Under the pieces are notes generated by a model. The model was given only the letters and a program-made list of their open reading frames with translations, was not told where the DNA came from and did no database searches. DNA of 64,000 bases from Aphrophora alni. Lineage: Eukaryota > Arthropoda > Insecta > Hemiptera > Aphrophoridae. The stretch lies in contig OY740768.1 of the NCBI GenBank assembly GCA_963513935.1, forward strand, positions 68,374,231 to 68,438,230, read 5' to 3'. Of the stretch, positions 25,540 through 57,260 are shown piece after piece. The translations under genes and the position numbers were made by a program. Numbering within the stretch: the stretch's first letter is position 1; each line of letters starts with the position of its first letter.

Positions 25540-25598
<59 letters not shown>
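25540..25598. repeat. (AT)n microsatellite
   Basis: Uninterrupted AT over about 59 bp, running into the 56-bp minisatellite. It may have grown out of the TTATATCT part of that unit. Confidence 0.97.
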
Positions 25599-25600
<2 letters not shown>

Positions 25601-26325
25601 TTAATATGTGTAAAATGAGTTTGAAATAGAGGTGGTGCTAAAATAATATTATATATTTAAAATAATTAATTGGGTTTCCAAAAGAGGTGGTGTTAAAATA
25701 ATATTATATCTTTAAAATGTGTAAAGTGATATTGCAATAGAGGTGGTGCTAATATAATATTATATTTTTAAATTGTGTAAAATTATATTGCAATAGAGGA
25801 GGTGCTAAAATAATATTAAACTTTTAAAATGTGTAAAATGAAATTGAAATAGAGGTGAAGCTAAAATAAAATTATATCTTTAAAATGTTTAAAATGAGAT
25901 TGCAATAGAGGTACTGCTAAAATAATATTATATCTTTAAAATGTTTAAAATGAGATTGCAATAGAGGTAGTGCTAAAATAATATTATATCTTTAAAATGT
26001 TTAAAATGAGATTGCCATAGAGGTAGTGCTAAAATAATATTATATCTTTAAAATGTTTAAAATGAGATTGCAATAGAGGTACTGCTAAAATAATATTATA
26101 TCTTTAAAATGTTTAAAATGAGATTGCAATAGAGGTAGTGCTAAAATAATATTATATCTTTAAAATGTTTAAAATGAGATTGCAATAGAGGTACTGCTAA
26201 AATAATATTATATCTTTAAAATGTTTAAAATGAGATTGCAATAGAGGTAGTGCTAAAATAATATTATATCTTTAAAATGTTTAAAATTATATTGCAATAG
26301 AGGTGGTGCTAAAATAATATTAAAA
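25594..26325. repeat. 56-bp minisatellite, about 13 units
   Basis: The unit is about 56 bp: AGGTAGTGCTAAAATAATAT, then TATATCTTTAAAATG, then TTTAAAATGAGATTGCAATAG. The left units are diverged (GTGTAAAATG, one unit with a different middle), while the units from about 25900 are nearly identical. Units with GTACTGCT and GTAGTGCT largely alternate from 25911 to 26247, suggesting a 112-bp dimer. It abuts the (TA)n tract on its left. Confidence 0.95.
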
Positions 26326-40732: not shown

Positions 40733-41226
40733 TGTCTCTACATTTACTAAACACGATATTTCGCCCTTATTTTTATAGTTTGACTTGTGTTTAGTATAGG
40801 TATAAATTTTGTGCTTTAATTTAAATTAAATTACTTAGCCTCCAAATTTAATATTAGGGGTCTATTGTCTATACATTTTTACTGAAAAACAATATAACGT
40901 TTTTTGTATGCTTTGTGTCTCTACCATGAAGTTTCATGTTTATTTTATTGTATATTTTGCCTTGTGTTAAGTAGTTTTAAATTTTGTGCTTTTAATTTAA
41001 ATTAAAATACTTAGCTTCCTAATTTAAAATTATTGTCTATACATTTTTACTGAAAAACAATATATATTTTTTATGAATTTTATCTCTACATTGAAGTTTT
41101 ATGTTTATTTTATTGTAGTTTACCTTGTGTTTAGTATAGTTTTAAATTTTGTGCTTTTAATTTAAGTTAAAATACTTAGCATCCAAATTAAATATTATTT
41201 TCTTTACGTTTTTACTGAAAACCAAA
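40733..41226. repeat. Imperfect tandem triplication, period about 163-177 bp
   Basis: The phrases CTTGTGTTTAGTATAG, TTTTGTGCTTTTAATTTAA, ACTTAGC.TCC and TTTTTACTGAAAA recur in the same order, with CTTGTGT at 40784, 40961 and 41124. The copies differ by substitutions and short indels. The array ends in a TATATA-rich stretch. No coding potential is seen. Confidence 0.85.
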
Positions 41227-41229
41227 AAT

Positions 41230-43220
41230 ATTATATATATATATAATTATAATTAAAATATAATATAAATATTATATATATAAACAACACAAAATTAATT
41301 GAATGTAAATTAAATATGAAATTATTTGATCCTCTTCTTAATTAAGTAAACTTAAAAACTTTAGGTTTACTGTATATCAATATTTTATTTTTATTTTATT
41401 CTATAATGTACTTTAATGGTTGTTTAAAAATTAAATATAAATATTAATAATATAGTTTTCTGTGACCCCATTAGTAACAATCAGAAAGAAAGATAAAAAC
41501 AAGAACTGGTCTCAGTCAATATGTCGTGAGGCAATCTCCAGCCTCCTCTCAACTCATATCACACAAGCTCTACTCTAAAAAAAAAAAAACGTGTAAAATA
41601 TGCAAAAAATGAATGCGGGTTTGTAATGGGAACTTACTAATCCTATCTTCACACTAAAAACCACAGCGTTCGTTGACTTGTTATGAAGAAAGAAAACTCT
41701 ATAGTACTATAGTAGAGCAATGTCCTTGGTAAGGATTTCTCCCCACCACACATTTAGACAGACAGACATCTGTCACTGTCAGCGGGAGGGGGAGGCAAGG
41801 AGACTCTATCGCTGCTACTTGGCAATTTTGGTACGGATTTGGTTTATCTTATCATAAAAACACTTGATCATAAAATCGTTAACCGTGAAATATATAGCTT
41901 TATAAAATATGTAACGTTACATACTTAACATATATTTATAGCTGCTATAAATCAATAACGTTTGCTGGTTTATGCAAATTTCTTCTATTTACTTGGAACA
42001 AGCATTTAACCTCAACAGAATATGGTGACAAACATTGGGTTTGTCTTGCACCGTGTTGTTTATTCCAAGACAATAAAAAGTCGTTACACAATATGCGTGA
42101 AGCAAATTAAAAAGTAATAGCTTTATCGCCGGCAAAAATTTACATGTGGAGTTCTCGATGGAACTAATAGAAATGCAGCTTCCAAAATGATGGTTGATCG
42201 TTTTTCTAGCAGCTCTGTTGTTTTTATTAGTTAATATAGTTACTATTCTTATTAGACAAATTTAGGACACATCAAAAATGTAGAGTAATCGCTTGAAAAT
42301 CCTACATGCAGGATTCAGATCATGAATTTTTTGTAAACATTTTTTTTTAACTTACTATCCTCGTATAAAAACCAAATAAAATTAAAATTAGTTTACTAAT
42401 ACTATAAAGTTTAGTAAAAATAACAAAGGTGAATAATTATATTTTTAATGAATTTGTACGTATATCTTTTTTGCTGAAACCAAATCATCAAATTCGATAA
42501 AAAACACTTCAAAAAGTTTTGTGGTGCTACTTAAAACACAAATGCACCATCTATTCAAATTTTGTGGTAATTAGGCAAGTATCCCGCAGACAACAATACA
42601 TACTATTGGCATTCATAGTGTTCTATATAAATAATTGTTTACGTATTTTTACTAACTTAGCTGTTATTATAGTCGTCATTATAGTCTCTTAACTTAAATT
42701 TATGTAATTTTTTGACGCGTGAACAAAAAAAGCAAGGTAAAAGTGAGGTTTTGGGGTAAAAAGAATAAACATAAACGTATGTTTGTCGTAATTCAAAGCT
42801 TGGTAGGGCCTACTCACCTTACGATCGACTCAAGTTTCTTCAAATTTGTTTCAAAGATTTAATATACTTTTGAGTATTCTGTTATCCGAAACGTAATTTC
42901 AGATAAGGAAAAGAAATCACAATAAAATATCCGAATTTAATTACTAATATTGTTTTTAATCGATACTTTTTGTGGAGTTAACAAATAAAATATTGATTAT
43001 AAAACCCGTTACACATTTTCAATTCTTATCTTTTCACTGACAATCTGAAGCATATTAATTACAAACTTAATGAAACCATGAAATTTATCCAACCAATCAT
43101 TTACATAACTAGGGAAACCTTACACAATAAAACGAAATTTAAACAACAAATATATGACGGCAAAAGTATCGTATTAAATTAGCTGTTATTAGCAAATCAA
43201 ATAACAAAAAAAAGGGTCGC
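41230..43220. other. AT-rich non-coding
   Basis: A small GC rise at 41480-41830 is visible. No exon or repeat family is seen. Confidence 0.4.
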
Positions 43221-51253: not shown

Positions 51254-51386
51254 CTGGATCACTGTGGTCCAAACTTTGCTGGGAGCTGGGTTGCTGGGAG
51301 AGAGGCCCTGGTGTACCCCCAGACCCTGGAGATCTTACGTCGTCGTTACCATGACCTCCGTACGACAAGGACGATGACGGTGGCCT
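51254..51386 (-). CDS. hth: Internal coding exon of homothorax (Meis-class TALE homeobox gene), linker between MEIS domain and homeodomain
   Basis: Homothorax is a nuclear TALE homeodomain factor that binds Extradenticle through its N-terminal MEIS/HM domain, brings it into the nucleus and acts as a Hox cofactor. This exon encodes only the low-complexity linker between that domain and the homeodomain. Seen: 133 bp, 44 codons in phase 0 plus one base, starting RPPSSSLSYGG, then NDDVRSPGSGGTPGPLSQQP and ending LDHSDP. From memory, Drosophila Hth has RPPSSSLSYGG, ARSPG, TPGPLSQQP and SDPD in the same order, and vertebrate MEIS1 has SGGTPGP there. The exon is flanked by TTTGTTTGTTTCAG (acceptor) and CAG|GTACAC (donor), and is much more GC-rich than its surroundings. 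The last base G would join the next exon, which fits the DG expected after SDP. The in-frame ATG just upstream lies in the intron and is not a start. No other exon of the gene was found in the window. Confidence 0.9.
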
Positions 51387-51402: not shown

Positions 51403-52399
51403 AATTAACTACTGATAAACGAATTACTTCAAAATACAGTTCAGTAACTGGTCGAAAAATTAAATTATTGTTGATTTACAGTAGTACCTAACGAGTTTGT
51501 ATTTGTATTTAATAAGTGGTGTTCTGATGACTACAGTTCAGATTTATTCATATTATTTTATGTTTTTGTTTGAATACACCGTCTAGAATTGTTGCTAATA
51601 ACATTTTAGAAACACTAAAATGTGTGTAAAGTATGAGTAATATTTATATGTAGAATATGACAATAGCAAAAGTATCAACAAATCACAGTTACTGAAAGTG
51701 CAAAATTAATTTGAGTACTAATATTTATTTAGATTTTATTTAATAACACTATAGGAAATAGAATAAAATGATTACTTCAATAGTTAATAATTTTAAAATC
51801 TTAATTTTCTCTTCCTATGAACTATTATTTATCAAAAAAACTAATACAATTAGAGACAAATAATCAAATTTATTATTCAACCATTCAAAGTCATAAAACA
51901 AAAGTTTTAAATAAATGCTGCACAAACTTCCTGACACACCCATACTCGAAACTAAATACCAATCAAGATCAAAATATACGGGAGGAATTTTCCATAAGAG
52001 AAAAACGCAAAATTCATATAAATAATAATATTCTAACAATTTAAAACAAATATTTGTGAAAATAAGCTCCAAGGGGTCATTTCCATAAAAATAGTCGTTC
52101 CAGAATTGACTGTTAAAAAGTTAAATAAACCATGGGTGCTATTAAAATAAATCAAAGTAAATTAGGATTTACCTGACAGTGGTCAGGTTATTTCAATATC
52201 TTGGAGAAGGTATTTTGAGGAAAAAATGAAAAATACTTTTTGGGGTCCCTGGAGGCAATATTTTAGTAATTTTGAACTTAATAAATATATATAAACAAAC
52301 CACATACTTTGATATACCAAAAATATATTTAAACCAAAAACTTCAGATATGCCCAAAATAAAATCGCATCCAAAAATGTTTTTAAATCAGTCCACAAAT
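51403..52399. other. AT-rich intron between satellite and exon
   Basis: Overlapping frames at 51815-52072 on both strands look random. ACCTGACAGTGGTCAGGT near 52170 is a small dyad with another TGACAG. Confidence 0.4.
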
Positions 52400-53821
52400 T
52401 TGGTAGAGTACTGCCAGACACCGACGGATATCATTTGGTAGAGCACTGTCAGACAGAGACGGATATCACTTGGTAGAGCACTGCCAGACACCGACGGATA
52501 TCACTTGGTAGAGCACTGTCAGACAGAGACGGATATCATTTGGTAGAGCACTGTCAGACAGAGACGGATATCACTTGGTAGAGCACTGTCAGACAGAGAC
52601 GGATATCATTTGGTAGAGCACTGTCAGACAGAGACGGATATCACTTGGAAGAGCACTGTCAGACAGAGACGGATATCACTTGGTAGAGCACTGTCAGACA
52701 GAGACGGATATCATTTGGTAGAGCACTGTCAGACAGAGACGGATATCACTTGGAAGAGCACTGTCAGACAGAGACGGATATCACTTGGTAGAGCACTGTC
52801 AGACAGAGACGGATATCACTTGGTAGAGCACTGCCAGACAGAGACGGATATCATTTGGTAGAGCACTGCCAGACACAGACGGATATCACTTGGTAGAGCA
52901 CTGTCAGACAGAGACGGATATCACTTGGTTGAGCACTGTCAGACAGAGACGGATATCACTTGGTTGAGCACTGTCAGACAGAGACGGATATCACTTGGTA
53001 GAGCACTGTCAGACAGAGACGGATATCACTTGGAAGAGCACTGTCAGACAGAGACGGATATCACTTGGTAGAGCACTGTCAGACAGAGACGGATATCATT
53101 TGGTAGAGCACTGTCAGACAGAGACGGATATCACTTGGAAGAGCACTGTCAGACAGAGACGGATATCACTTGGTAGAGCACTGTCAGACAGAGACGGATA
53201 TCATTTGGTAGAGCACTGTCAGACAGAGACGGATATCACTTGGTAGAGCACTGTCAGACAGAGACGGATATCACTTGGTAGAGCACTGTCAGACAGAGAC
53301 GGATATCACTTGGTAGAGCACTGCCAGACACCGACGGATATCACTTGGTAGAGCACTGCCAGACACCGACGGATATCATTTGGTAGAGCACTGTCAGACA
53401 GAGACGGATATCATTTGGTAGAGCACTGTCAGACAGAGACGGATATCACTTGGTACAGCACTGTCAGACAGAGACGGATATCATTTGGTAGAGCACTGTC
53501 AGACAGAGACGGATATCAATTGGAAGAGCACTGTCAGACAGAGACGGATATCACTTGGTAGAGCACTGTCAGACAGAGACGGATATCATTTGGTAGAGCA
53601 CTGTCAGACAGAGACGGATATCACTTGGAAGAGCACTGTCAGACAGAGACGGATATCACTTGGTAGAGCACTGTCAGACAGAGACGGATATCATTTGGTA
53701 GAGCACTGTCAGACAGAGACGGATATCACTTGGTAGAGCACTGTCAGACAGAGACGGATATCACTTGGTAGAGCACTGTCAGACAGAGACGGATATCACT
53801 TGGTAGAGCACTGTCAGACAC

Positions 53822-54988
53822 AGACGGATATCACTTGGTAGAGCACTGTCAGACAGAGACGGATATCACTTGGTAGAGCACTGTCAGACAGAGACGGATA
53901 TCACTTGGTAGAGCACTGTCAGACAGAGACGGATATCATTTGGTAGAGCACTGTCAGACAGAGACGGATATCACTTGGTAGAGCACTGTCAGACAGAGAC
54001 GGATATCACTTGGTAGAGCACTGTCAGACAGAGACGGATATCACTTGGTAGAGCACTGTCAGACAGAGACGGATATCACTTGGTAGAGCACTGTCAGACA
54101 GAGACGGATATCACTTGGTAGAGCACTGTCAGACACAGACGGATATCACTTGGTAGAGCACTGTCAGACAGAGACGGATATCACTTGGTAGAGCACTGTC
54201 AGACAGAGACGGATATCATTTGGTAGAGCACTGTCAGACAGAGACGGATATCATTTGGTAGAGCACTGCCAGACACAGACGGATATCATTTGGTAGAGCA
54301 CTGTCAGACAGAGACGGATATCACTTGGTAGAGCACTGTCAGACAGAGACGGATATCATTTGGTAGAGCACTGTCAGACAGAGACGGATATCATTTGGTA
54401 GAGCACTGTCAGACAGAGACGGATATCACTTGGTAGAGCACTGTCAGACAGAGACGGATATCATTTGGTAGAGCACTGTCAGACAGAGACGGATATCACT
54501 TGGTAGAGCACTGCCAGACACAGACGGATATCATTTGGTAGAGCACTGTCAGACAGAGACGGATATCACTTGGTAGAGCACTGTCAGACAGAGACGGATA
54601 TCATTTGGTAGAGCACTGTCAGACAGAGACGGATATCACTTGGTAGAGCACTGTCAGACAGAGACGGATATCACTTGGTAGAGCACTGTCAGACACAGAC
54701 GGATATCACTTGGTAGAGCACTGTCAGACAGAGACGGATATCACTTGGTAGAGCACTGTCAGACAGAGACGGATATCATTTGGTAGAGCACTGTCAGACA
54801 GAGACGGATATCACTTGGTAGAGCACTGTCAGACAGAGACGGATATCACTTGGTAGAGCACTGTCAGACACAGACGGATATCACTTGGTAGAGCACTGTC
54901 AGACAGAGACGGATATCACTTGGTAGAGCACTGTCAGACAGAGACGGATATCATTTGGTAGAGCACTGTCAGACAGAGACGGATATCA
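53822..54988 (+). repeat. Satellite block, first copy of a 38-unit segmental duplication
   Basis: The order of variant units (CTGCC/CACAG at 54261 and 54511, CTGTC/CACAG at 54121, 54681 and 54861, plus the CACT/CATT pattern) recurs exactly 1330 bp to the right. By eye the two copies are identical over about 1167 bp. Confidence 0.85.
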
Positions 54989-55151
54989 CTTGGTAGAGCA
55001 CTGTCAGACAGAGACGGATATCATTTGGTAGAGCACTGTCAGACAGAGACGGATATCACTTGGTAGAGCACTGTCAGACAGAGACGGATATCACTTGGTA
55101 GAGCACTGTCAGACACAGACGGATATCACTTGGTAGAGCACTGTCAGACAG

Positions 55152-56318
55152 AGACGGATATCACTTGGTAGAGCACTGTCAGACAGAGACGGATATCACT
55201 TGGTAGAGCACTGTCAGACAGAGACGGATATCACTTGGTAGAGCACTGTCAGACAGAGACGGATATCATTTGGTAGAGCACTGTCAGACAGAGACGGATA
55301 TCACTTGGTAGAGCACTGTCAGACAGAGACGGATATCACTTGGTAGAGCACTGTCAGACAGAGACGGATATCACTTGGTAGAGCACTGTCAGACAGAGAC
55401 GGATATCACTTGGTAGAGCACTGTCAGACAGAGACGGATATCACTTGGTAGAGCACTGTCAGACACAGACGGATATCACTTGGTAGAGCACTGTCAGACA
55501 GAGACGGATATCACTTGGTAGAGCACTGTCAGACAGAGACGGATATCATTTGGTAGAGCACTGTCAGACAGAGACGGATATCATTTGGTAGAGCACTGCC
55601 AGACACAGACGGATATCATTTGGTAGAGCACTGTCAGACAGAGACGGATATCACTTGGTAGAGCACTGTCAGACAGAGACGGATATCATTTGGTAGAGCA
55701 CTGTCAGACAGAGACGGATATCATTTGGTAGAGCACTGTCAGACAGAGACGGATATCACTTGGTAGAGCACTGTCAGACAGAGACGGATATCATTTGGTA
55801 GAGCACTGTCAGACAGAGACGGATATCACTTGGTAGAGCACTGCCAGACACAGACGGATATCATTTGGTAGAGCACTGTCAGACAGAGACGGATATCACT
55901 TGGTAGAGCACTGTCAGACAGAGACGGATATCATTTGGTAGAGCACTGTCAGACAGAGACGGATATCACTTGGTAGAGCACTGTCAGACAGAGACGGATA
56001 TCACTTGGTAGAGCACTGTCAGACACAGACGGATATCACTTGGTAGAGCACTGTCAGACAGAGACGGATATCACTTGGTAGAGCACTGTCAGACAGAGAC
56101 GGATATCATTTGGTAGAGCACTGTCAGACAGAGACGGATATCACTTGGTAGAGCACTGTCAGACAGAGACGGATATCACTTGGTAGAGCACTGTCAGACA
56201 CAGACGGATATCACTTGGTAGAGCACTGTCAGACAGAGACGGATATCACTTGGTAGAGCACTGTCAGACAGAGACGGATATCATTTGGTAGAGCACTGTC
56301 AGACAGAGACGGATATCA
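55152..56318 (+). repeat. Satellite block, second copy of the 38-unit segmental duplication
   Basis: This repeats 53822-54988 at an offset of 1330 bp (38 x 35). The copies diverge at 54989/56319, where the CACT/CATT order shifts, perhaps by loss of one unit. Unequal crossing-over or an assembly duplication would both explain it. Confidence 0.85.
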
Positions 56319-56662
56319 TTTGGTAGAGCACTGTCAGACAGAGACGGATATCACTTGGTAGAGCACTGTCAGACAGAGACGGATATCACTTGGTAGAGCA
56401 CTGTCAGACACAGACGGATATCACTTGGTAGAGCACTGTCAGACAGAGACGGATATCACTTGGTAGAGCACTGTCAGACAGAGACGGATATCACTTGGTA
56501 GAGCACTGTCAGACACAGACGGATATCACTTGGTAGAGCACTGTCAGACACAGACGGATATCACTTGGTAGAGCACTGTCAGACAGAGACGGATATCACT
56601 TGGTAGAGCACTGTCAGACAGAGACGGATATCACTTGGTAGAGCACTCCCAGACACAGACGG

Positions 56663-57260
56663 GTTTATATCTACTTTCTCTACTCTACTAATATGCGAGA
56701 ATATAAAAACAACCTGAATTGTATTAATTGATTAAATAAATTGTTGTTTCCATTGGCACACTATAAAATCTGAACTACTTTTTCACGTTTGATCTTCCAT
56801 ACCTATATCATAATGTCACTTAAAAAGACAACCCACAACTTGAAATCGTAGAAAACAAACAACCTGCGTTATGCAAAGTACATATCTTTCGCGCCCTTCC
56901 CAAAGTACCCAAGATTTGCTCCACTACCGTTGATATTTGAATATTTTTATTTTTCTCCTCTCCCTCCGAACACTTTGTTTATCAACAACTTCAGTACTTG
57001 ACGCAGGGAAAATTCTCTTGCGGTGTTGAAGTCAATTGTGAAGATGTGTCAGATGGTACATTGGGGGGAGTTGGGGTCCCATGGGATCAGACAACACGAC
57101 ACTTCACTCAAGCCTCCCCCCCCCTTCCTTCGGTCACAACCATATCCAAACTTGTCTTTAGGAAAACGTAACGTTTTCTTGATGGGAATTTGCCTTCAAT
57201 GATCATTTATAAAATGCAAAATAAAAAAATTAAACTCTTTTAAACGTATTTTGAATTCAG
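56663..57260. other. Right flank of satellite, moderately GC-rich
   Basis: Contains TTGGGGGGAGTTGGGGTCCC and a C9 run (57116-57124). No ORF or family is recognised. Confidence 0.35.

Follow-up and report, generated by a model that had tools for sequence, protein, structure and literature searches.

Tandem DNA bound by Homothorax (Hth) is known from Drosophila embryos, where ChIP found Hth on three subfamilies of the 1.688 satellite. According to the accessible text of PMC4368669, the 260-, 359-, and 361-bp subfamilies contain 3, 7, and 12 predicted Hth sites, respectively, and in hth mutant embryos transcription of these subfamilies is much reduced, together with a reduction of H3K9me3. The hexamer TGACAG, taken as a Meis-type site in the original prediction for the locus described here, is presented in passages of PMC6023610 as a monomer site of Prep/Meis that occurs close to Pbx-Hox sites. 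In the accessible portion of PMC3071676 the words TGACA and TGTCA are absent, and its passages on autoregulation are silent on autoregulation of hth itself.

The locus is a 35-bp tandem array of Aphrophora alni, located in a window of 64,000 nucleotides, the whole stretch of DNA analysed here (contig OY740768.1 of assembly GCA_963513935.1). The 1.688 precedent, absent from the original prediction, makes the strongest case for testing this array.

The array and its host gene

The host gene is homothorax, as originally named, judged from one exon of 133 bp (51254..51386, minus strand; RPPSSSLSYGGHGNDDVRSPGSGGTPGPLSQQPSSQQSLDHSDP) with an AG acceptor, a GT donor, and protein matches. The exon encodes RPPSSSLSYGG...SDP, and across the seven best of 233 proteins the identity of its residues to Hth is 95-100%. 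These include Hth of Clastoptera arizonana (100% over 98%), Laodelphax striatellus and Lycorma delicatula (98% each), Nilaparvata lugens (96%), and two leafhoppers (95%). The grouping of these matches points to an auchenorrhynchan bug or close kin. The search of the window with five Hth relatives (tblastn, E up to 1) returned exon 51254-51386 alone, and a longer tblastn output held only weak, low-identity matches away from the exon, among the matches listed.

In full-length relatives the part encoded by this exon follows the MEIS N-terminal region and precedes the homeodomain. On the hth-sense (minus) strand the array is found 1.0 kb before the exon, on its upstream side. Since the MEIS region of the relatives also comes before this exon, the array would lie in an intron of homothorax, and the preceding exon would fall outside the window. 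Isoform X4 of N. lugens Hth (P0007) possesses an 11-residue insert, ISSSREEMTKL, between STPDV and RPPSS, so that the orthologous intron may contain a small alternative exon. No match to this insert at 6 or more of its 11 residues was found on the minus strand of the window.

Tandem Repeats Finder places the array at 52400..56662, with 121.8 copies of the consensus TTGGTAGAGCACTGTCAGACAGAGACGGATATCAC, 96% matches, and 0% indels. The units are arranged head-to-tail at a constant period of 35, as in a minisatellite or satellite array. Cut in register from 52400, the array comprises 121 complete units of 13 types, with the register unbroken across all of them, and one partial unit. Its G+C content is 48%, compared with 30% in the rest of the window, a contrast which may point to an origin outside the local sequence. 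Two other larger arrays were found in the window, one with a 56-bp unit (25589-26322; 13.1 copies) and one with a 165-bp unit (40775-41232; 2.7 copies). Both have a G+C content of 21%, and both contain zero copies of TGACAG or CTGTCA.

Queries of two units each, one of the consensus and one of CTGCC type, detected no copies of the unit elsewhere in the window; the best match was of 11 bases (E 0.73), and outside the array only chance matches of 10-11 bases appeared at E up to 10. Exact unit patterns had no match in a collection of genome contigs, nor did the first pattern in viral contigs, where the second pattern gave two isolated matches, neither of them in a tandem array within the 151 bases of each. 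The flank ends have in common only AT-rich words of 5-6 bases as candidates for a target-site duplication, and the translated open stretch of the array had no protein relative in the search. A 14-mer of the unit was absent from the searched literature. Judged by title and the start of the abstract, none of the papers containing any of six 12-/13-mers of the unit is about this repeat, and papers on homothorax with satellite or tandem repeats, or on planthopper satellite DNA, describe no such array.

The unit contains TTGGTAGAGC, which we take to resemble a tRNA D arm. A tRNA origin suggested by this likeness is unsupported, with no tRNA detected, and a structured RNA or tRNA-derived repeat was likewise rejected, with no Rfam match at the gathering threshold and none up to E = 10 over 51900-57200. 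An 11-bp palindrome, CTGTCAGACAG, is present in 100 copies on the plus strand, in the commonest unit types, and is absent from both edge units. It is unremarkable, given that 21% of shuffled units hold an inverted repeat with 5-bp arms and a spacer of 0-8.

Motif counts, unit variants, and internal duplication

CTGTCA occurs 111 times on the plus strand of the array and TGACAG is absent from that strand, so that all 111 sites read TGACAG on the hth-sense strand, in one orientation. This agrees with the roughly 110 copies first counted. Eleven of the 122 units have no CTGTCA; ten of them read CTGCC and the last reads CTCCC, the same numbers and variants as originally described. Elsewhere in the window the hexamer is found 2.1 times per 4263 bp on both strands (30 copies over 59,737 bp; 0.018 per 35 bp), which makes the 111 copies a large excess, multiplied by copying. 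The CAGAC boxes of the original prediction are also present, with 139 copies on the plus strand.

A shuffled unit holds the hexamer in 13.6% of dinucleotide shuffles (0.136; 20,000 shuffles) and in 2.2% of mononucleotide shuffles. When a single factor is named beforehand, the odds of the coincidence are thus about 1 in 7 to 1 in 57, depending on the null used. Other words are frequent in the array, including CACTTG/CAAGTG (84) and GATA (121 on each strand). We take CACTTG to be an E-box and equally an NK2-type CAAGTG, and the GATA words to be of GATA-factor type. These words were multiplied alongside TGACAG.

The motif shows no detectable constraint. Position 15 of the unit, the T of CTGTCA, departs from the consensus in 10 of the 121 complete units; among the 35 positions, only position 35 (37/121) and position 22 (20/121) vary more. 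One of the six motif positions segregates, against 7 of the 29 others (Fisher p = 1.0), and with only 8 of 35 positions segregating the test is weak and does not exclude constraint. The same p value was obtained with the 89 units that are left when the second copy of the 32-unit block described below is removed, and with the 13 distinct variants. Of the 726 cells in the motif 10 are non-consensus, as are 71 of the 3509 cells in the rest of the unit. Counting the window of the motif itself, 22 of the 35 circular windows of six bases show no more changes than the motif. A lower variability of CTGTC relative to the rest of the unit, originally suggested as a check, was not detectable in this weak test.

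The first unit (52400..52434; CTGCCAGACACCGACGG) and the last, partial unit (56635..56662; CTCCCAGACACAGACGG), both read on the plus strand, lack the motif. Read at positions 15, 22, and 23, the units fall into an ordered series of C-C-C (4 units), C-C-A (6), T-C-A (11), and T-G-A (100), with one C-G-A. Both end units belong to the C-C type at positions 15 and 22. Under random placement of the 11 motif-less units, the probability that neither end carries the motif is 0.0075. Edge units of tandem arrays are usually the least homogenised. Since the edge units here are without the motif, the founding unit probably had no TGACAG, and the site probably arose later, inside the array, which speaks against the earlier suggestion of a chance core already present in the founder. 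With no outgroup, these edge units are what sets the root direction of the series, and one of them, the last unit, is diverged.

Within the array, a block of 1167 bp (53822..54988, plus strand) recurs identically at 55152..56318 on the same strand, at an offset of 1330 bp or 38 units. The longest identical string of unit variants spans 32 units, whereas 300 shuffles of unit order gave strings of at most 12. Block and string are the marks of homogenisation and segmental amplification, and they would therefore reflect recent, block-wise growth (or a mis-assembly at this place). With such growth, the 111 sites would represent far fewer events. The count in the original prediction holds; the copies are not independent, as the block repeats 1330 bp further on.

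Origin and possible roles of the array

The array is very probably a recently expanded, homogenised, and neutral minisatellite in which TGACAG was spread by copying. An intronic minisatellite would have expanded recently by unequal exchange or replication slippage, which homogenised its units. TGACAG most likely came from a C-to-T change at unit position 15 within an older array of the CTGCC type, and the copying that spread the other bases of the unit would have taken it to 111 of 122 units. Hth may contact these sites passively. Some observations count against this reading. The coincidence is rarer by other nulls (0.022 for mononucleotide shuffling; 0.018 for the density outside the array). 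The derived, motif-bearing type has spread, as selection or drive would also cause. The two other larger arrays have no copy of the hexamer, which is hence no general feature of local repeats.

It is unlikely that repeat number and order are partly an effect of assembly, through a false duplication of a 1.3-kb stretch. The exact 1167-bp duplication inside the array would fit such an error; nevertheless, recent unequal exchange is also expected to yield identical blocks, the register is unbroken over 121 units, and elsewhere in the window the 1-kb flanks have no more than three matches, all short and weak.

A role as a self-targeted sink or heterochromatin element is very unlikely. Here, Hth on 111 sites in its own gene would titrate itself, or promote local transcription of the satellite and H3K9me3, so that hth would be under negative feedback. 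The description of TGACAG as a Prep/Meis monomer site (PMC6023610) and the Hth-dependent transcription of the Hth-bound 1.688 satellites in the fly (PMC4368669), both from partial texts, favour this proposal. So does the homeodomain. The 68-residue Hth homeodomain, used as a query, is found letter for letter in 48 of 120 homologues, and WFINARRR in 98 of the 120, among the matches listed. Homologues without the full 68-residue stretch include a partial sequence (P0001) and an isoform without homeodomain (P0003). The same query matches the solved Meis1/Meis2 homeodomains, with a best E of 5.9e-41. Hth may bind the predicted sites of the array.

However, other evidence argues against self-targeting. 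Besides the lack of detectable motif constraint in the weak test above, the strict Exd/Pbx composite is absent from the array, with 0 copies of TGATTGAC and 0 TGAT/TGAC pairs within 0-2 bases, and a pattern search found 0 Pbx-Hox decamers. A looser form, WGAY(N0-2)WGAY, is mentioned in a passage of PMC3764184; it occurs 118 times in the array against 7.3 times per 4263 bp outside, but falls on AGAC words. According to the accessible text of PMC6023610, Prep as a monomer may also fail to bind the hexamer unless partners such as Hox are present. Among the features of an Hth/Meis autoregulatory enhancer, the array thus has the TGACAG sites (111, on the hth-sense strand) and no strict Exd/Pbx or Pbx-Hox composite. 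For the originally proposed autoregulatory element or sink, the array itself, the number of its sites, and their orientation stand, and a sign of function in the sequence does not.

An extended form of the same idea, drawn by analogy with 1.688, is highly unlikely. A satellite in the intron of hth would have gained and spread an Hth site, Hth bound in cis would seed satellite transcription and H3K9me3, and the gene would read its own dose via an element variable in copy number.

Extremely unlikely is a role of the array, 1.0-5.3 kb before the true acceptor on the hth-sense strand, in providing decoy 3' splice acceptors: the commonest unit on that strand, GATATCCGTCTCTGTCTGACAG, has a pyrimidine-rich tract ending in CAG, and 101 of 121 YAG sites of the array have 11 of 15 upstream pyrimidines (12 of 15 at the true hth acceptor, 10 in C-C-A or T-C-A units, and 9 in all four C-C-C units of founder type), but 8.8% of the 1358 YAG sites elsewhere on the minus strand score equally high, with at least 11, and this reading was noticed post hoc, after the sequence was seen.

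Comparison with known systems

As an array, the locus is ordinary by its sequence features, which give no support to a function of the motif and make a functional reading improbable. It provides a worked case of a conspicuous motif count that would come from copying and not from independent gains. No match to the 35-bp unit was found elsewhere in the window or in the searched genome contigs. Similar to the 1.688-X arrays of Drosophila, described in passages of PMC7214746 as short arrays of related units in introns and active regions, the array is a run of related units predicted to be intronic. Average similarity among the fly units is about 73%, according to the same passages, whereas those of the 35-bp array are nearly identical.

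The array shares the hexamer with Hth/Meis-dependent enhancers, in which TGACAG is found near Pbx-Hox sites according to passages of PMC6023610. Unlike these enhancers, it has no Pbx-Hox decamer or adjacent TGAT/TGAC pair. With the Hth-bound 1.688 subfamilies of D. melanogaster (PMC4368669, and PMC7214746 citing Salvany et al. 2009, both as partial texts) it has in common predicted Hth sites in tandem DNA. In the pericentromeric 1.688 satellite, binding and Hth-dependent transcription were measured, according to passages of PMC4368669, whereas the present array is located in the hth gene and is known from its sequence. If Hth does bind here, the array would be a self-targeted satellite, variable in copy number, in a developmental regulator, and it would link the known binding of satellites by Hth to the control of its own gene.
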